The notes below the pieces were generated by a model that was given only the letters and a program-made list of their open reading frames with translations, was not told where the DNA came from and did no database searches. A DNA stretch of 64,000 bases from Blattabacterium cuenoti (GTDB lineage: Bacteria; Bacteroidota; Bacteroidia; Flavobacteriales; Blattabacteriaceae). The stretch lies in NCBI RefSeq assembly GCF_014252395.1, contig NZ_CP059219.1, forward strand, positions 234,610-298,609, read 5' to 3'. Position numbers and translations under genes: made by a program. Of this stretch, positions 23,775 to 34,457 are shown one piece after another (position 1 is the first letter of the stretch; each line of letters opens with the position of its first letter).

Positions 23775-24086
23775 ATGAAAACAAAAGATATTATAAAAGG
23801 AAAATTTTTAGTAAAAGAATACGCTTATCGTAGTTGGAATTTTATTGTTTTTATTACTATACTATCTTTAATTAGTATTACTAGTTCACATATAATGGAT
23901 CGAAAAATAAGAAAAATAACTAAAATAAGTGAAGAAATAAAAGAATTAAAATCTGAATATGCAGATATACATAGTCAATGTATGAAAATGCAATTAGCTT
24001 CTTTTTTAAAAAAAAAATTAGTTAATGGATTGGAACATATAGAAGAACCTCCATATGAATTAATTTTAGAAGATATAAAAAATTAA
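23775..24086 (+). CDS. ftsL: FtsL-like cell division protein
   Basis: A 103-residue protein with a cytoplasmic N-terminus, one membrane helix (about 24-42) and a short coiled coil (about 45-80, KISEEIKELKSEYADI). Sequence conservation in FtsL is poor. The assignment rests on topology and on its fixed place between rsmH and ftsI. FtsL bridges FtsQ/B and the FtsWI synthase. Confidence 0.75.
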   Translation: MKTKDIIKGKFLVKEYAYRSWNFIVFITILSLISITSSHIMDRKIRKITKISEEIKELKSEYADIHSQCMKMQLASFLKKKLVNGLEHIEEPPYELILEDIKN

Positions 24087-24128
24087 ATAATTAGTATAGT
24101 TTTATATAATACGTATAAATAAATAAAT

Positions 24129-26099
24129 GTGAAACGTAAAAGATATATTTTATTATACAAATCTTATTTAATTGGTTTTTTATTCATTTTTATTGCTGCA
24201 TTAATAATTTTTAATTTATTTTATATTCAAAATTCTTCAGAAGGATACAAAAAATATGTCATAGAAAAAACAATTAGATCCAATTTAATTAAAGCTAAAC
24301 GTGGAAATATTTATGCTTCAGATAGAAGTATTTTAGCTATGTCTGTTATAAAATATAATATACATGTTGATTTTAGATCAATACCTGAAAAATTATTTAA
24401 AGAAAATATTTACTCTTTATGTAACTCCCTAGAGTTTTTGTTTAAAAAACCAAAATTTTTTTATATAAAAAAATTTCAATTAGAAAAGAAAAAAGGTAAT
24501 AGATATTTTTTATTAGCAAAAAATATAGATTATCCACATTTTAAAATATTACGTAATTTTCCAATTTTTAATAAAGGACAAATAAGAGGAGGATTTATTG
24601 TAGAAAAAAAAATATGTAGGATTCATACATTAGGAAATATTGGAAAAAGAACATTAGGATATGATGATCATAGAGGAAAAGTAGGATTAGAAGGAGCATT
24701 TAGTAAATATTTAAAAGGAAGAGATGGAAAAAGATTAGAACAAAAAATCAGTTCTAAAATATGGAAACCATTAAAATCAGAAAATGAAATTGATCCAGAA
24801 GATGGAAAAGATGTTTATTCCACTATAGATATATATTTACAAGATATAGCTTATCACGCATTGCTTCAACAATTATCTATTTCTCAAGCGGACCATGGAT
24901 GTGTTATCCTTATGGATGTAAAAAGTGGAGAAATTCCTGCTATGATTAATTTAGAAAAAACAAAAAAAAATACTTATGAAGATTTAAGAAATTTTTCCGT
25001 ATGGGAAGGAAGTGAACCTGGATCTACTTTTAAAACTATGTCTATTCTTGCTGCTTTAGAAGATAAAAAAATAGATATTAATATGATTATAAATACTAAG
25101 GGTGGAGTTATGAAATTAAAAGGAAAAAAAATACGAGATAGTCATTATAAAGGATATCTAAAAATGAATCCAAAACAAATATTGGAATTTTCTTCAAATG
25201 TAGGAGTAGCAAAAATTATATATGATAATTATAAAAAAAATCCAGATAAATTTATAAAACATTTATGTAAATGGAAATTAGATAAAAAAATAGGTATAGA
25301 TATACCAGGTGAAAGTTCCCCTTTTATACCAAAACCTGGAGAAAAAAATTGGAATAGTATAACATTACCTTGGATGACTTTTGGATATAATATTAAATTA
25401 ACTCCTTTACAAATACTAACTTTTTATAATGCTATAGCAAATAAAGGTAAAATGGTAAAACCTATGTTCATAAAAGAAATAAAATATAATGGAAAAAGTA
25501 TCAAAAAATATACAAAACCTATTGTTATAAATTATTCTATAGCTAAAAAATCCTCTTTAAGTAAAATTCAAAATATGTTAGAAGGAGTAGTAAAAAATGG
25601 AACAGCTAAAAAATATTACCATACAGAATATCCATATGCAGGAAAAACTGGAACAACTCAATTAAATTATTGGATAAAAGGAAAACCTTTGACCTATAAT
25701 AGTTCTTTTGTAGGATATTTTCCAGCTAAAAATCCTAAATATTCTTGTATTGTTGTCATTTCAAAGCCAGAAATAGGATATTATGGTATTGAAGTAGCAG
25801 TTCCTGTATTTGATAAAATTGCTAAATCTATATATCCAATAATAGGTAGAAAAAAAATTTTAAAAAAAGAAAATAAAGAAAATTTGATAAATAAAATTGT
25901 AGAATCAAAAAAAATTTTTATAGAAAAAAGTAAAATGCCTAATGTTATTTCCTTTCCAGGAAAAGAGGTTATACCTATGTTAGAAAATAATGGATTTAAT
26001 ATACGATATAAAGGTATAGGAAAAGTCATAAAACAATCTGTTAAACCAGGAAGTAAATTAAAAAAAAATCAAATTATATTTTTGAAACTAGAAGAATGA
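24129..26099 (+). CDS. ftsI: Peptidoglycan transpeptidase FtsI (PBP3) with PASTA domain
   Basis: A 656-residue class B penicillin-binding protein for septal cross-linking. It has an N-terminal membrane helix (about 12-32), a dimerisation domain, then the transpeptidase domain with SxxK at Ser299-Lys302, SSN (SxN motif) and KTGT from Lys506. The C-terminus from about 605 is a PASTA domain (MPNVISFPGKEVIPML). The start is GTG; the ATG two bases earlier runs straight into TGA. The stop overlaps the murE ATG as ATGA. Confidence 0.94.
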   Translation: MKRKRYILLYKSYLIGFLFIFIAALIIFNLFYIQNSSEGYKKYVIEKTIRSNLIKAKRGNIYASDRSILAMSVIKYNIHVDFRSIPEKLFKENIYSLCNSLEFLFKKPKFFYIKKFQLEKKKGNRYFLLAKNIDYPHFKILRNFPIFNKGQIRGGFIVEKKICRIHTLGNIGKRTLGYDDHRGKVGLEGAFSKYLKGRDGKRLEQKISSKIWKPLKSENEIDPEDGKDVYSTIDIYLQDIAYHALLQQLSISQADHGCVILMDVKSGEIPAMINLEKTKKNTYEDLRNFSVWEGSEPGSTFKTMSILAALEDKKIDINMIINTKGGVMKLKGKKIRDSHYKGYLKMNPKQILEFSSNVGVAKIIYDNYKKNPDKFIKHLCKWKLDKKIGIDIPGESSPFIPKPGEKNWNSITLPWMTFGYNIKLTPLQILTFYNAIANKGKMVKPMFIKEIKYNGKSIKKYTKPIVINYSIAKKSSLSKIQNMLEGVVKNGTAKKYYHTEYPYAGKTGTTQLNYWIKGKPLTYNSSFVGYFPAKNPKYSCIVVISKPEIGYYGIEVAVPVFDKIAKSIYPIIGRKKILKKENKENLINKIVESKKIFIEKSKMPNVISFPGKEVIPMLENNGFNIRYKGIGKVIKQSVKPGSKLKKNQIIFLKLEE

Positions 26100-27564
26100 A
26101 AAAAATATTGAAAAATATTTTAGAAAAAGTATGTGTGTTAAAAATAATAGGAAAAGATATTTATAAATCTATAAAAGGAATTTATATATATTCTAAATTA
26201 GTTCAAACAAACACCATGTTTGTAGCAAACAAAGGAAAAATAATAGATGGACATAAATTTATAAAAGACGCTATAAAAAATGGTGCAAATACTATTGTTT
26301 GTGAGACTATTCCTTTTTTTATTCAAAAAAATATAACTTATGTTATTGTTCCAAATTCTATGGAAGCTTTAGGAATAATATCCTCTAATTTTTATGATCA
26401 TCCTACAAAAAAAATAAAATTGATAGGAATTACTGGAACAAATGGAAAAACATCTGTAGCGGTTATACTTCATCAATTATTTTCTAATATGGGTGAAAAA
26501 AATATTCTTATATCAACTATAGGTATAAAAATATTATCTCATAAATATACTACAACACATACAACTCCAAATATTATTGAAATTAATAAATATTTAAATT
26601 TATCAATACAAAAAGGATGTAAGTATGCTTTTATGGAGGTAAGTTCACATGGAATACATCAAAATAGAATTTCAGGTTTATTATTTAAAGGTGGAATTTT
26701 TACTAATATTACACATGATCATTTAGATTATCATAAATCTTTTAATAATTATTTATCTACTAAAAAACTTTTTTTTAATAATCTATCTAAAGATTCTTTT
26801 GCATTGATTAATTACGATGATAAAAATTCAAATAAAATAATAAAAAATGTTTTGTCTAAAATTTATTTTTATGGATTAAAAAAAAATTCAAATTTTAAAA
26901 TTAAAATTTTGAAAATAAACATTAATGGTAGTCAATTATTAATTGATAAACATAAATTTTTTTCTAATTTAATTGGAAAATGTAATGTTTATAATTTATT
27001 AGCCAGTTACGCTACAGCTATTATATTAGGTAAAAAAAAAATGATATTATTAAAATAATAAAAAATATAAATCCCATTGAAGGACGTTTTGAAAAATTTT
27101 TATCTCATTCAGGAATTAGAGTCATTGTTGATTACGCACATAATCCAGATGGATTAAAAACTGTTTTAAATACCATTAAAGAAACAAAAAAAAATAAAGA
27201 AAAATTGATTTGCGTTATAGGTTGTGGAGGAAATAGAGATAAAAAAAAACGTTCTTTAATGGGTAAGATTGTTTACGAAAAATGTGATATATCTATTTTT
27301 ACATCTGATAATCCTAGAGGAGAATCTCCAGAAAAAATATTAATGGATATGAAAAATTTTAAATCATATCTAAATAAAAAACCTATTTTAACTTTTGTTA
27401 ATAGAAAAAAAGCTATTGAAACTGCAATTCAAATTGCAAAAAAAAAAGATATTATTTTAATAGCAGGAAAAGGACATGAAACTTATCAAGAAATAAAAGG
27501 AAAACGTTATCCTTTTAATGATATGAAAATTACTAAATATTTATTCAAAATTTATAATAAATAA
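26096..27564 (+). pseudogene. murE: UDP-MurNAc-tripeptide ligase murE, interrupted at an A10 tract (probably rescued by slippage)
   Basis: MurE adds meso-diaminopimelate to UDP-MurNAc-L-Ala-D-Glu. The first frame (26096-27058) encodes the UDP-binding and ATPase domains (GITGTNGKTSV, THTTPN, EVSSHGI) and then stops soon after the tract. The second frame, open from 27034 to 27564, continues with PIEGRFEKF, VIVDYAHNPDGL, VIGCGGNRDK, SDNPRGESP and AGKGHETYQ. One extra A in the ten-A run at 27032-27041 joins them into 489 residues, the normal MurE length, and the joined text matches the family. No frame is lost and no other stop occurs, so decay looks recent or the gene is rescued at transcription. 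mraY starts directly after the stop. Confidence 0.9.
27032..27041 (+). other. A10 slippage/frameshift site in murE
   Basis: Ten consecutive A. Ten gives GKKKMILLK then stop; eleven gives GKKKNDIIK and continues to the C-terminal ligase domain. Upstream the second frame is closed by TAA at 27031-27033, so the shift must occur within the tract. Confidence 0.88.
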
Positions 27565-28725
27565 ATGATTAATACTATACTTTTTTTTCATCCTATTTTT
27601 TATAAATCTTTAATAGCTTTTTTTTTATCTTTTTTTACAGCTTTAATTTCTTATAAATGTATTATTATATATTGTAATGAAAATAAAAAAAATAACATAG
27701 TAGAAACTATACGAGATCTTGGTCTTATTGGACAAAAAGAAAAAGAAGGAATTCCAACAATGGGTGGTCTTATAATTATATTTTCTACATTAATTTATAC
27801 AATACTTTTTTCTTCATTGAAAAATATATATGTTTTTATGTTAATTATTACTATATTATATATGGGAAGTATTGGTTTTATAGATGATTATATTAAAATA
27901 AAATATAAAAACAAAAAAGGACTTAGTGTAACTGGTAAAATATTAAGTCAGATGATATTAGGACTTTTTATTGGATATACTATGTATTTTAATACAAATA
28001 TATCTATTCATGAAAAAAATTCACATTTTTTATATAAAAAAGAAAATGGATTTAAAACTTCTATTCCTTTTTTTATTCATAAAAATGAGTTTAATTATGC
28101 TTATTTTTTTAGTTGGTATAATAAAAAATGGAATAAATATTCATGGATGGTTTTTATTCCTTTTATTATTATAATCGTTACATTTTTATCCAATGGGGCT
28201 AATTTAACTGATGGCATAGATGGATTAACAGCTGGTATTTCTTCTATAATTATTTTAACATTATCTTTATTATCTATAATATCCAGCAATAAAATTTATT
28301 CCTATTATTTACATATAATGTATATACCTAATATAGAAGAGATTATTGTGTTTTCTTTTTCTTTTTTGGGATCTTTAATAAGTTTTCTTTGGTATAATGT
28401 TTATCCAGCACAAATTTTCATGGGAGATACTGGTAGTTTGACTATAGGTAGTGTAATAGCAACATTATCTATTATAAATAGAAAAGAATTCACTTTACCT
28501 ATTTTATGTGGTATATTTTTTATAGAAAATATTTCTGTACTTGTACAAGTTTTGTATTTTAAATATTCTAAAAAAAAATATGGAATAGGAAAAAGAATTT
28601 TTCTTATGGCTCCTTTACATCATCATTTTCAAAAATTAGGATATCATGAAAATAAAATTTTTAATCGTTGTATGATTATACAAATCATGCTTTCTTTGTT
28701 AGTATTAATATTATTCATTTATTAA
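27565..28725 (+). CDS. mraY: Phospho-MurNAc-pentapeptide transferase MraY
   Basis: A 386-residue integral membrane enzyme with about ten helices that makes lipid I from UDP-MurNAc-pentapeptide and undecaprenyl phosphate. Motifs are TPTMGG-like PTMGGLIIIF, GFIDDYIKI (Asp pair), NLTDGIDGL and FMGDTGSL, with APLHHHFQKLG near the end. It starts on the base after the murE stop. UppP, encoded at 55338, regenerates its lipid substrate. Confidence 0.95.
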   Translation: MINTILFFHPIFYKSLIAFFLSFFTALISYKCIIIYCNENKKNNIVETIRDLGLIGQKEKEGIPTMGGLIIIFSTLIYTILFSSLKNIYVFMLIITILYMGSIGFIDDYIKIKYKNKKGLSVTGKILSQMILGLFIGYTMYFNTNISIHEKNSHFLYKKENGFKTSIPFFIHKNEFNYAYFFSWYNKKWNKYSWMVFIPFIIIIVTFLSNGANLTDGIDGLTAGISSIIILTLSLLSIISSNKIYSYYLHIMYIPNIEEIIVFSFSFLGSLISFLWYNVYPAQIFMGDTGSLTIGSVIATLSIINRKEFTLPILCGIFFIENISVLVQVLYFKYSKKKYGIGKRIFLMAPLHHHFQKLGYHENKIFNRCMIIQIMLSLLVLILFIY

Positions 28726-28732
28726 AAAAATA

Positions 28733-30121
28733 ATGAAAAAAAAATTTATAGTAGTATTAGGTGGAGGAGAAAGTGGAGTAGGAGCCGCTTTATTAGCAAA
28801 AAAAAATGGATTAAAAATATTTATTTCTGATTCTGGAATTATAATGAATAAATATAAAAAAATTTTAAAAAAAAATGAAATTATTTTTGAAGAAAAAGGA
28901 CATACAGAAAACTTTATAATTGAAAAAGCTACTGAAATTATAAAAAGCCCTGGAATTTGTAAAAAAAATATTCTAATAAAAAAAATTAATTCTTTTGGTA
29001 TTCCTATTTTATCTGAATTAGAATTTGGTAAAAGTTATCTAAAAAAAAACTATTTAATAAGCATTACAGGAAGTAATGGAAAAACTACTACAACTTCTAT
29101 TGTATATAAAATTCTTAAAAAAGAAGGAATTAATGTAGGAATAGCTGGTAATATTGGACGTAGTTTTTCCAAAGAAGTTTTAAAAAAAAAAGATATTTAT
29201 GTATTAGAAGTCAGTAGTTTTCAATTAGATGACTGTTATAATTTTCGTTCAAATATTGCAGTATTATTAAATATTACAAGAGATCATCTAAATAGATATG
29301 ATAATATTGAAAATTACATTTATTCTAAATTTAAAATAGCACTTTTTCAAAAAAAAAAAGATATATTCATTTATAATCATGATGATCCTATTATTAGAAA
29401 TGGATTAAAAAAATTTTATATAAAATCTAATTGTATTCCTTTTTCTATCAAAGAAAAACTACCTATTGGAGCTTACTTAAAAGATAAAAAAATATGGATG
29501 ATTAAAAAAAAAAATACAAAAAATAAAGAAAAATTGTTAATGGATATTAATAATATTTCTTTAATAGGAGATCATAATTTATACAATATTATGGCTTCAT
29601 TAATTATATCCGAAATATTAAACGTAAAAAAAGAATCAATAATTTCTATATTATCAAAATTAAAAGCTATAGAACACCGTATGGAAAAAGTATTAAACGT
29701 AAATGGAGTTTATTTTATTAACGATTCTAAAGCTACTAATGTTAATGCTGTTTTTTATGCATTACAAAGTATAAATAAACCTATTATATGGATAGCAGGA
29801 GGAGAAGATAAAGGAAATAATTATCAAGAATTGATACCATTAGTTAAAGAAAAAGTAAAAGCTATAATTTGTTTAGGAATAAATAATGAAAAAATTATCT
29901 TTTTTTTTAAAAATATTATTAATATTATTTTAGAAACAATAAGCATGAAAAATGCTATTAAAATGGCTTATGAATTATCTTTACCTGGATGTAATGTATT
30001 ATTATCTCCTGCTTGTTCCAGTTTTGATCTTTTTAAAAATTATAAGGAAAAAGGAAATAAATTTAAAAAAGAAGTAAAAAAATTTTTTATAAAAAAAAAT
30101 GAAAAAAATAGAGACTTTTAA
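28733..30121 (+). CDS. murD: UDP-MurNAc-L-alanine:D-glutamate ligase
   Basis: A 462-residue Mur ligase. Residues 1 to about 95 are the Rossmann-like UDP-binding domain (VVLGGGESGVG), the central ATPase domain has SITGSNGKTTTTS, and EVSSFQLD and HRMEKV also fit. FINDSKATN marks the C-terminal domain. It adds the D-Glu made by MurI. The 3' end overlaps ftsW by 23 bases. Several A runs of ten or more occur within the gene, but the frame is intact. Confidence 0.94.
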   Translation: MKKKFIVVLGGGESGVGAALLAKKNGLKIFISDSGIIMNKYKKILKKNEIIFEEKGHTENFIIEKATEIIKSPGICKKNILIKKINSFGIPILSELEFGKSYLKKNYLISITGSNGKTTTTSIVYKILKKEGINVGIAGNIGRSFSKEVLKKKDIYVLEVSSFQLDDCYNFRSNIAVLLNITRDHLNRYDNIENYIYSKFKIALFQKKKDIFIYNHDDPIIRNGLKKFYIKSNCIPFSIKEKLPIGAYLKDKKIWMIKKKNTKNKEKLLMDINNISLIGDHNLYNIMASLIISEILNVKKESIISILSKLKAIEHRMEKVLNVNGVYFINDSKATNVNAVFYALQSINKPIIWIAGGEDKGNNYQELIPLVKEKVKAIICLGINNEKIIFFFKNIINIILETISMKNAIKMAYELSLPGCNVLLSPACSSFDLFKNYKEKGNKFKKEVKKFFIKKNEKNRDF

Positions 30122-31271
30122 TAAGTATATAAAAGGAGACCGATATCTATGGGCTTTTATATCTTTATTAGCTATATTTTCTTTTTTACCAGTATATTCT
30201 GCAAGTACTAATTTAGTTAGTACATATGGAGGAACAAATACAGTATTTAGTTATTTATTAAAACATGCTTTATTTTTATTAATTGGTTTTTTTATACTTT
30301 TATTTACTCAATTTATAGATTATAAATATTTTTATCGTATGTCTATAATTTTTATGCCTATAGTGTTAATTTTATTAGTATTTACTATAAATCAGGGTAA
30401 AGAAGTAGATGGAGTTAATGCTTCTCGTTGGCTGCATATTCCTATCATCAATATATCTTTTCAAACTTCAAGTATTGCGTCTCTAGTACTTTTTATTTAT
30501 TGCGCTAGATATTTAGCTAAAAAAAAAAAAAAAAGGATCAATTTTATTAATTCTTTTTTTCCATTATTATTTCCTATATTTTTTATTATAGGTCTTATTT
30601 TTCCAGCTAATGGTTCTACTGCAGGCATTATTTTCATTTCTGTTTTAATTTTACTTTTTATAGGAGGTTATCCTATAAAAGGAATTATTAATATTTTATT
30701 AATGGGAATTTTATTTTCTGTAATATATATTTATTCTGTGATAAAATGGGGAGATAAAAACCCTATTCATAGAGTTTTTACATGGAAAAGTCGCATAGAA
30801 AAATTTTTAGATAATGAATCTGAAGAAAGTTATCAAATGATACAATCTAAAACAGCTATTGTTTTAGGAAATAAATTTGGTCGTGGTCCTGGTAAAAGCG
30901 TTTTAAAAGCTTTTTTACCACAATCTTCTTCTGATTTTATTTATGCTATTATTATAGAAGAATATGGATTTTTTGGAGGAGTAATACTTTTATTTATTTA
31001 TCTACTTATTTTGCTTAGAATTATGGTTATAGCTACTAAAGTTAAAAATTATTTTTGTTCTTTATTAGTTCTTGCTGTAGGATTACCTATTATTTATCAA
31101 GCACTCATTAATATGGGAATAGCTGTAGGTTTATTTCCTATTACAGGACAAACTTTACCTCTTATTAGTGCTGGAGGAACTTCTATGTGGGTTACTTTTT
31201 TTAGTTTTGGTATCATATTAAGTGTAAGCAAAATTATATATTATGAAAAAACCAATACTAAAATTGTCTAA
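30099..31271 (+). CDS. ftsW: SEDS-family septal peptidoglycan polymerase FtsW
   Basis: A 390-residue protein with about ten helices that polymerises glycan strands with FtsI. Motifs are ASRWLHIP, AYQ-type YQMIQSKTAI, GRGPGKS, and the C-terminal PLISAGGTS. It starts inside murD and ends inside murG. A run of sixteen A (30519-30534) encodes AKKKKKR in a cytoplasmic loop and keeps the frame as sequenced. Confidence 0.93.
   Translation: MKKIETFNKYIKGDRYLWAFISLLAIFSFLPVYSASTNLVSTYGGTNTVFSYLLKHALFLLIGFFILLFTQFIDYKYFYRMSIIFMPIVLILLVFTINQGKEVDGVNASRWLHIPIINISFQTSSIASLVLFIYCARYLAKKKKKRINFINSFFPLLFPIFFIIGLIFPANGSTAGIIFISVLILLFIGGYPIKGIINILLMGILFSVIYIYSVIKWGDKNPIHRVFTWKSRIEKFLDNESEESYQMIQSKTAIVLGNKFGRGPGKSVLKAFLPQSSSDFIYAIIIEEYGFFGGVILLFIYLLILLRIMVIATKVKNYFCSLLVLAVGLPIIYQALINMGIAVGLFPITGQTLPLISAGGTSMWVTFFSFGIILSVSKIIYYEKTNTKIV
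30519..30534 (+). repeat. A16 homopolymer inside ftsW
   Basis: The longest single-base run I noticed in a coding region of the window. It reads as five Lys codons plus the A of AGG. Any one-base slip by polymerase would shift the frame. Confidence 0.9.
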
Positions 31272-32363
31272 TATTCCTAGAATACTTATAGGAAGTGGAG
31301 GAACTGGAGGTCATATATATCCAGGAATAGCTATTGCAAATGAACTAAAAAAAAAATTCCAAAAACCAATATATTGTTTATAGGATCTAAAAATCATATG
31401 GAAATGCAAGAAGTTCCTAAATTCGGATATTCTATTGAAGGAATTTGTATTTCAGGAGGAATAGATAAACTTTTTTCTTTATCAGGTTTCATTTTTTTTG
31501 TAAAATTAATATATAGTTTTATTTGGGTAAATAAAATTATTAAAAAATTTTGTCCAGATATAGTTATTGGAACTGGAGGTTTTGTAAGTTTTCCTACCTT
31601 ATATGCTGCAAAAAAAAATAAAATACCTATTCTTATTCAAGAACAAAATTCTTTTCCTGGATTAACCAATAGAATATTTTCTCGTTATGCCAATAAAATA
31701 TGTATTGCTTATGAAGAAGCAAAAAAATTTTTTCCAGAAAAAAAAACTGTAATTACTGGAAATCCAGTAAGATCTGAAATATTAAAAATACCTAGTAGAG
31801 AGATTGCTTGTAATTATTTAGGATTAAAAAAAGAAAAACCTATTGTTTTATCTATAGGTGGAAGTCAAGGATCTAACAGTATTAATAATGCTTTAATAAA
31901 AGGATTAAAAAAATTAATAGAATTAGATATACAACTTATTTGGCAGGTAGGAAAAATGGATATTCATAGAATTAAAAAAAATGAAATATCTCATCATTCA
32001 AATTTTATTTTAATGGAATTTATTGAAAATATATCAATATGTTATGCTGCTGCAGATGTTATTGTATCTAGAGCTGGTGCTTTAACTATATCTGAAATAT
32101 GTTTAGTAGGAAAACCTTATATATTAATACCTATTCCTTGGTCTTCAGATGATCATCAAAATAAGAATGCTAAAATATTAGAAGAAAAAAAGGCAGCTTT
32201 GATTATTAAAAATGAGGAAATAAATAAAAAATTAATGAATTCTATTATTAAATTAATAAATAATTCAAAAATGAAGAATAAAATGATTAAAAATATATTA
32301 CGATTAGGAAAACCAAGTGCTACAAATGATGTAGTAAACGAAATATTACAAATTATTTTATGA
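31243..32363 (+). pseudogene. murG: UDP-GlcNAc transferase murG, interrupted at an A10 tract (probably rescued by slippage)
   Basis: MurG converts lipid I to lipid II. The N-terminal frame starts at ATG 31243 (overlapping ftsW by 29 bases), contains the family loop GSGGTGGHIYPGIA and stops at 31378-31380. The second frame is open from 31344 and carries NILFIGSKNHMEMQEVPK, VIGTGGFVSFP, IQEQNSFPGLTN, GGSQGSNSIN and SRAGALTISE. One extra A in the ten-A run at 31347-31356 joins them into about 373 residues, a normal MurG length. Starting only at TTG 31374 would leave out the essential glycine-rich loop. The stop overlaps murC as ATGA. Confidence 0.9.
31347..31356 (+). other. A10 slippage/frameshift site in murG
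   Basis: Ten A. As sequenced they give ELKKKFQKPIYCL then stop; eleven A give LKKKIPKTNILFIGS, which matches MurG. The second frame is closed upstream by TGA at 31341-31343, so the shift point lies in the run. Confidence 0.88.
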
Positions 32364-33745
32364 ACTTAAATAAAATAAATTATTTTTATTTTTTAGGAAT
32401 AGGAGGGATAGGTATGAGTTCTATTGCTAAATATTTTCATCTTATTGGAAAAAAAGTTTTTGGTCATGATCAAAATAAAACTTTATTAACAAAAAAATTA
32501 GAAAAAGAAGGTATATCTATTAATTATAATGATAGTATAAGTTTTTTACCAAAATGTGTTCTTTCTAAAGAATGTTTAATAGTCTATACTCCAGCTATTT
32601 CTAATAATAACAAACAATGGATTTTTTTAAAAAAATATGGAAAAAATATAAAAAAACGTTCTCAAGTATTGGCTTTAATTACAGAAAATGAACTTTGTAT
32701 AGCTATAGGAGGTACTCATGGAAAAACAACTACTTGTACATTATTAGGACATATTTTATATAGTGCAGGAATGAAAATTACTGCTTTTTTAGGAGGAATA
32801 TCCGAAAATTATAAATCTAATCTTTTATTTAATAAAAAATCTAAAATTTTTTTAGTAGAAGCGGATGAATTTGACCATTCTTTTTTATATTTATCTCCTA
32901 ATATAGCATGTATAACATCTTTAGATCAAGATCATATAGATATCTATCCTACAAAAGAAAACCTAAAAAAATCTTATATAGATTTTTCAAATAGAATAAA
33001 AAAACCATATAGAAAAATATTTCTTTGTAAAGAAGAATCTTTACGAGCAAAAAATTCTATTTATTATTCAATAATAGAAAAAAAAGTAAATTATTATTCG
33101 GACCATCTTTGCATAAAAGAAAATAAATGGTATTTCGATTTTCATACCCCTAAAGAAACATGGACTTCTTTACCATTACCTATTCCAGGAATACATAATC
33201 TAAAAAATGTAACAGCAGCATTAGCTATATCTGACTATCTAAAAATTAATAAAAAGGAAATAAAAAAAGCTTTATTCTTATTTAAAGGAATAAAAAGAAG
33301 ATTTTCTATTCATTATCAAAAAAAAAAAATATATATAGATGATTATGCACATCATCCTACAGAAATAAACGCATTAATTCATACTGTAAGAAAATGTTTC
33401 CCAAAAAAAAAGATATTAGGAATTTTTCAACCACATTTATTTAGTAGAACTAAATTTTTTGAAAAATTTTTTGTAAAAAGTTTAGAAAAATTAGACATTT
33501 TAATTCTATTAGATATTTATCCAGCTAGAGAAAATCCTATTAATAATGTTAATTCCAATAATTTATTAAAAAAAATAAAAATAAATTATGAAAATAAAGA
33601 AATATCTACTTTATCCAAAGTTTTAGAAAAACTTAAAAAAAAACATTTTGATATTATTATTACAATGGGAGCTGGAAATATAGATACTTTAATCCTTCCT
33701 ATAACAAAGTGGTTGAATAAACAATATAGAGATGAAAAAAAATAA
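32360..33745 (+). CDS. murC: UDP-MurNAc:L-alanine ligase
   Basis: A 461-residue Mur ligase that adds the first stem residue. Motifs are FLGIGGIGMSSIA (UDP-binding), AIGGTHGKTTTCTL (ATP-binding), EADEFDHSFL, DDYAHHPTEI and FQPHLFSRTK. Full length. It overlaps murG by 4 bases and ftsQ by 14. A run of twelve A (33318-33329) is in frame. Confidence 0.95.
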   Translation: MNLNKINYFYFLGIGGIGMSSIAKYFHLIGKKVFGHDQNKTLLTKKLEKEGISINYNDSISFLPKCVLSKECLIVYTPAISNNNKQWIFLKKYGKNIKKRSQVLALITENELCIAIGGTHGKTTTCTLLGHILYSAGMKITAFLGGISENYKSNLLFNKKSKIFLVEADEFDHSFLYLSPNIACITSLDQDHIDIYPTKENLKKSYIDFSNRIKKPYRKIFLCKEESLRAKNSIYYSIIEKKVNYYSDHLCIKENKWYFDFHTPKETWTSLPLPIPGIHNLKNVTAALAISDYLKINKKEIKKALFLFKGIKRRFSIHYQKKKIYIDDYAHHPTEINALIHTVRKCFPKKKILGIFQPHLFSRTKFFEKFFVKSLEKLDILILLDIYPARENPINNVNSNNLLKKIKINYENKEISTLSKVLEKLKKKHFDIIITMGAGNIDTLILPITKWLNKQYRDEKK

Positions 33746-34457
33746 GGTTTTTATTTTTATTTTCATATTATATATAATTTGTATGATATCACTTTTTTTA
33801 TTTTCTCAAAAAACACATAAAAATAGAAACTTAAAAAAGTTAAGTATTATTATTGATCCATTTTCAAAAGATCATTTTGTAAATAAAAAAATTATTAAAC
33901 ATATTCTATTTTACAAAAAAAAAAAAATTGAAAAAAAAATCGGTCAATTATGTATATTGAAAATTGAAAAAAAACTAAATAATTACCCTTTTATAAAAAA
34001 ATCTGAAGTTTTTATTAGTGTAGATGGAACCCTTAATATTAATATTTGGCAAAAAGAACCTATTTTAAGAATAAAAAATGGAAATAAAGAATATTATATA
34101 ACAAAAAATGCGGAAAAATTAGAATTATCTTCTTTTTATTCCTCAAATGTTATTTTAGCGAAGGGTATTTTTTCAAAAAAAGAAAAAAAATATTTAGTTG
34201 ATTTAGTCAAGTATATTAATTCTGATAAATTATTAAAAAATCAAATTATTAGTATAAAAAAAAATGATGAAAACTCATTTGTTTTAATTCCAAAAATAGG
34301 AAATCATCATATTATATTAGGTAGTATTAAAAATTTTAAAAAAAAATTGAATAAATTAAAAGCATTTTATAAGCAGTACCTAAATAAAATAAATATAAAT
34401 CAATATAAAAGTATTGATTTACAATATACAGACCAAGTAGTCGCAAAAAAAAGATAA
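33732..34457 (+). CDS. ftsQ: FtsQ-like cell division protein
   Basis: A 241-residue bitopic protein with one N-terminal helix (about 5-24), a POTRA-like region (about 30-105) and a beta domain. Sequence similarity to FtsQ is low, but the position between murC and ftsA is diagnostic. KEPILRIKNG and YYITKNAEKLELSS fit the FtsQ beta-domain pattern. A run of thirteen A (33915-33927) lies in frame. Confidence 0.8.
   Translation: MKKNKVFIFIFILYIICMISLFLFSQKTHKNRNLKKLSIIIDPFSKDHFVNKKIIKHILFYKKKKIEKKIGQLCILKIEKKLNNYPFIKKSEVFISVDGTLNINIWQKEPILRIKNGNKEYYITKNAEKLELSSFYSSNVILAKGIFSKKEKKYLVDLVKYINSDKLLKNQIISIKKNDENSFVLIPKIGNHHIILGSIKNFKKKLNKLKAFYKQYLNKININQYKSIDLQYTDQVVAKKR

Follow-up and report, generated by a model that had tools for sequence, protein, structure and literature searches.

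The genome analysed here (G000; 626,430 bp, 22.6% GC) belongs to Blattabacterium, the symbiont of the cockroach fat body, and the stretch of its DNA under study (64,000 nucleotides, termed the window) carries a wall and division gene cluster in the order penicillin-binding protein gene, murE, mraY, murD, ftsW, murG, murC. The murE gene of this cluster, an essential gene of the cell wall, is broken into two reading frames at a run of ten A. The question raised by the locus is whether a gene in this state can still give rise to full-length MurE and, if it does, at which step of expression the frame would be mended.

Structure of the split murE gene

The elements of the locus are as follows (coordinates are those of the window).

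26096-27058, + strand: murE 5′ frame, 320 aa, with the Mur ligase N-terminal and middle domains; in-frame TAA at 27056-27058
27032-27041, + strand: uninterrupted A10 tract at the junction of the murE frames, needing one more A for the frame to be open
27034-27564, + strand: murE 3′ frame, 176 aa, with the Mur_ligase_C (glutamate ligase) domain and its DNPRGE and GKGHE motifs; uninterrupted by a stop
27565-28725, + strand: mraY, intact; ATG immediately after the murE stop codon

The letters at the split read ...TTA GGT AAA AAA AAA ATG ATA TTA TTA AAA TAA. The start codon of murE overlaps with the stop codon of the preceding gene (24129-26099); at the other end, the adjoining mraY ATG indicates that the 3′ half has kept its tight place within the wall operon. 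The two frames carry complementary Mur ligase domains, the break falling between the middle and C-terminal domains. The preliminary description had taken them for one normal MurE split at the A10 tract, with one extra A restoring the usual length, and both points were borne out: addition of a single A gave a 489-aa product scoring 586.5 bits against the meso-DAP-type MurE model NF001126 (cut-off 373), compared with 345.7 and 227.3 bits for the separate halves. The frame switch had also been confined to the ten A, and this part of the claim has to be relaxed. Stop codons set the limits, a TAA at 27031-27033 for the second frame and the TAA at 27056-27058 for the first, and a switch is formally possible throughout 27034-27055; the KK(K/N)xND residues conserved in relatives nevertheless favour the A run as the probable site.

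murE in related genomes

The tract was compared across 49 Blattabacterium genomes of ~0.5-0.64 Mb each, G000 included, a check that had been proposed at the outset. The murE gene is a single open frame in 47 of them and split only in G000 and G019, and neither murE nor murD is absent from any of the 49. Both split genes are broken at the identical tract, GGN-A10-TGAT, and these are the only two such pure tracts in the set. No in-frame pure tract ending in TGAT occurs among the 49 genomes, the run of the in-frame relatives being mostly interrupted or differently terminated. In G046, the sister of G019, the tract reads AAA AAC AAA AAT and is interrupted and in frame. Since G000 and G019 are not sisters and G046 is in frame, the murE breaks are two independent events; common ancestry of the two is ruled out by the two changes on the tree together with the in-frame G046.

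The 3′ half of murE is open over 165 of 165 expected codons in both split genomes. Its pN ratio relative to the 5′ half (3′/5′) is 0.94 in G000 and 1.21 in G019, with a range of 0.84-1.48 for intact genes, and the faster amino-acid change, extra stops or deletions of a pseudogene were not seen. On the tree, G000 forms a lone long branch, and murE may have broken there so recently that decay is not yet visible. For murE of G000, rescue is argued from analogy and from the intact, undecayed 3′ half.

Selection on murD while out of frame

The murD gene, two genes downstream, supplies the analogy.

28733-30121, + strand: murD, in frame in G000, 462 aa
29182-29191, + strand: A10 tract of murD; the homologous tract lacks one A in 23 of the 49 genomes

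The murD splits, surveyed with those of murG in a 19-kb cluster of the 49 genomes, all lie in this single homologous tract (A9-A14) and are always one A short. In one clade, 13 of the 15 members are split, one is in frame and one has been re-framed by a 2-nt deletion. No stops were found in the out-of-frame 3′ part of murD, either in these 13 genomes or in all 23. If the 3′ part were untranslated, ~74 stop-making changes would be expected in the clade (1.59 x 876 x 0.053, that is 1.59 substitutions per third position, 876 sites and 5.3% of single changes making a stop), a figure that assumes that the split persisted through the clade. The dN/dS of the 3′ part is ~0.2 (0.14-0.33 in split pairs vs 0.18-0.43 in in-frame pairs), which equals the values for the 5′ part and for in-frame genomes, and the median 3′/5′ pN ratio is 0.93 in split and 1.07 in in-frame genomes. 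Given the lack of stops and the normal dN/dS, full-length protein is almost certainly still made from split murD, as judged by these patterns of substitution. In G046 the shared A9 of murD is kept and a downstream 2-nt deletion restores the frame; this natural second-site revertant indicates that the murD product matters. On these comparisons, the out-of-frame state of murD has persisted over long lineages while the remainder of the gene stayed intact.

Other genes split at poly(A) tracts

The G000 genome was scanned for further frameshifts by whole-genome comparison with G019 and G030, the gene set being filtered by conservation. Four internal poly(A) frameshifts were found, in murE (A10), murG (A10), murF (A16) and ftsK (A12), and all four are one A short, each without a second lesion. 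The three besides murE, which the preliminary description had missed, are located as follows.

31243-31383, + strand: murG 5′ frame, 46 aa, ending with TAG at 31381-31383
31347-31356, + strand: murG A10 tract at which the frame is lost, one A short
31374-32363, + strand: murG 3′ frame, 329 aa by open reading frame search; its open stretch begins earlier, inside the A tract
G000:C1:540158-540182, outside the window: murF split at A16
G000:C1:326795-326825, outside the window: ftsK split at A12

The remaining matches of the scan lay at rRNA or tRNA borders or at N termini and were set aside as artefacts of open reading frame starts. The out-of-frame state is rare among the long A runs of G000: of 731 coding-strand runs with at least 9 A, just four have lost the frame, and the 178 runs of A10 account for two of these. 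G000 is an unusually AT-rich lineage, with 22.6% GC vs 26.5-27.4% in G019 and G030 and 731 coding A runs of at least 9 vs 408-470 in those genomes.

Across the genus, murG is split in five genomes (G000, G011, G021, G033 and G046); the tract has A9 forms in G021, G033 and G046, and G011 shares the split of G000. Searches of all 49 genomes found murF split in four, topA in 13 and nadD in 37 (for example G030:C1:330835-330868). The nadD gene is normally essential for NAD synthesis. Its tract occurs as an in-frame A12 (G042), as A11 or A10 one short and, in eight genomes, as A10 two short. For topA, a pure A12 is present in the split genomes that were read by pattern, and the in-frame relatives have a G inside the run. 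The topA N-terminal query was unmatched in the long-branch genomes G010, G038 and G039, which suggests that topoisomerase I is lost or strongly diverged there. Splits were found only in uninterrupted tracts of at least 9 A, and in the mur genes the missing base was always a single A (murD 23/23, murE 2/2, murG 5/5, murF 4/4). A run of 117 A that interrupts a 319-aa gene at G030:C1:463252-463524 looks like an assembly artefact.

A proposed slippage model for murE

The best mechanism for these observations is transcriptional slippage; recent inactivation and −1 shifting by ribosomes rank behind it. Arguing by analogy, and with a probability of about 0.62, murE of G000 would be a functional though out-of-frame gene that gives full-length MurE via RNA polymerase slippage. 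Substitutions would first have turned the murE tract into pure A, and a slip in replication would then have left it one A short. At this run, RNA polymerase would insert one more A into some of the transcripts, and these mRNAs would encode full-length MurE. The same out-of-frame state would have arisen repeatedly in Blattabacterium, chiefly in the wall genes murD, murE, murF and murG, and also in nadD and topA. For murE in G000 we infer all three of the product, the transcriptional step and the share of corrected transcripts. Rescue by slippage, as the preliminary description had put it, thus stands as the best-supported reading, on the strength of the selection on murD and the recurrence in G019; that recent inactivation or a −1 shift also fit qualifies it.

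The sole lesion of murE is a frameshift in a pure A10, the rest of the gene being in frame, and the sign of the break, one A short in all murD, murE, murF and murG cases, fits a product of slippage by +1 A. Insertions by RNA polymerase prevail in A/T runs and increase exponentially with run length (PMC5574713), a bias that matches this sign. Note, however, that the same genome-wide study of transcription errors in Buchnera found no error restoring a frame (PMC5574713), and that the E. coli RNA polymerase slips less on runs of A than on runs of T (PMC6260861). The nadD tracts that are two A short could be mended by heterogeneity in transcript length and not by a −1 ribosomal shift, an argument for slippage that holds only where nadD still functions. 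Wall-building capacity may, as the preliminary description suggested, be set by the rate of slippage. It is conceivable, if rather improbable, that Blattabacterium, convergently with Buchnera, holds its wall-precursor ligase genes out of frame and that slippage in this way throttles peptidoglycan synthesis in host cells, dosage being set by tract length and not by a promoter.

Alternative explanations

Wall synthesis could be undergoing stepwise loss in this strain, murE, murG and murF having been inactivated recently and no full-length enzyme being made. Blattabacterium is known for gene loss that proceeds pathway by pathway. Three of the four internal frameshifts of G000 lie in peptidoglycan genes, the fourth being ftsK, and three broken wall genes in one genome would also fit loss of the pathway. 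This explanation is nevertheless unlikely: each of the four genes carries just one poly(A) frameshift, always of the same sign and unaccompanied by further lesions, murE shows no decay in its 3′ half, all 49 genomes have murE and murD, and in other strains selection demonstrably acts on murD despite the same lesion.

Slightly less probable again is that ribosomes shift by −1 on A AAA AAA, decoded by tRNA-Lys(UUU), and make the same full-length protein from mRNA with ten A. An in-frame slippery heptamer is present in murE (A AAA AAA) and in most split murD genes (A AAA AAG), the single tRNA-Lys of the genome has the anticodon UUU, and the need of every mur split is exactly what a −1 shift supplies. 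Against this, downstream RNA structure is lacking (mean z −0.19 in split murD vs −0.08 in in-frame murD, and +1.55 for murE here), and no Rfam match was found within 24000-34000 of the window. Moreover, the split tracts always have at least 9 A though the heptamer would suffice, and the nadD tracts two A short are beyond repair by such a shift.

An error of sequencing or assembly, with a true murE tract of A11, is a far weaker candidate. Homopolymers are a weak spot of sequencing, and the tract is known here from the assembled sequence. Yet only four of the 731 long A runs of G000 are out of frame, G019 independently lacks one A in the same murE tract and analogous splits at a mere A9 recur in many genomes, and systematic miscalling of homopolymers is thus unlikely. 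Finally, two separate polypeptides that assemble into MurE, as the position of the break between domains might allow, can be dismissed, since the 3′ frame has no ATG, GTG or TTG before a TTG at 27205, already inside the C domain, and MurE is a single chain in all in-frame relatives.

Implications for gene inventories

Frameshifted genes are routinely struck from gene lists as pseudogenes. By that practice nadD would count as lost in most of the genus and murD in half of it, though murD at least is clearly maintained. In a survey of Buchnera, frameshifted coding sequences were removed and murE, murF and murC were reported as lost, yet the cells still build walls (PMC9116674); genes rescued by slippage could explain such contradictions between lost genes and wall building. 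Two unrelated symbiont lineages are hit in one pathway, and why wall ligases tolerate a reduced dosage becomes directly testable. Taken by itself, the murE split is of moderate interest; more comes from the set of splits across the genus, above all from murD, on which selection acts in spite of its out-of-frame state in 23 genomes.

Comparison with known systems

Programmed −1 frameshifting of the dnaX or insertion-sequence type shares with murE an A-rich slippery heptamer, the −1 direction and tRNA-Lys(UUU). It differs in that murE has no downstream structure, a tract far exceeding the heptamer and, as product, one full-length enzyme; murE was not assigned to this class, the heptamer being present and the stimulatory RNA structure absent.

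In Blochmannia, ancient homopolymer frameshifts are maintained (Wernegreen et al. 2010, cited in PMC3017870). There, as here, a homopolymer frameshift is kept across related species without gene decay. Unlike that case, splits reach 23 of 49 genomes for murD and 37 of 49 for nadD within a single genus, in which splits have been gained, and frames restored, more than once.

The closest counterpart is Buchnera, for which slippage rescue of poly(A)-frameshifted cell-wall genes is already established. This is the precedent invoked in the preliminary description: according to a review, poly(A) slippage corrects 12-50% of the transcripts of these genes (PMC5009743, which like PMC3164680 summarises Tamas et al. 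2008 PNAS). Homopolymer frameshifts are described for murE, murF and mraY of Buchnera-Sg, and those of murF arose on four independent occasions (PMC3164680). In the literature searched, no paper was found that links Blattabacterium with nadD, transcriptional slippage or, in a relevant way, murD, though annotation, supplements or key subscription papers may mention such a link. Both systems are AT-rich insect endosymbionts in which a single indel in a long A run leaves the rest of the gene intact, and murE and murF are among the genes hit in each. They differ in that Blattabacterium belongs to the Bacteroidota and Buchnera to the Gammaproteobacteria, that the present cases are known from DNA whereas those of Buchnera have cDNA evidence, and that murD, murG, nadD and topA are also affected in Blattabacterium. 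As the two belong to different phyla, the hits in mur genes are convergent. By analogy, the Blattabacterium cases would extend the known kind of slippage rescue to another phylum, in the same pathway.
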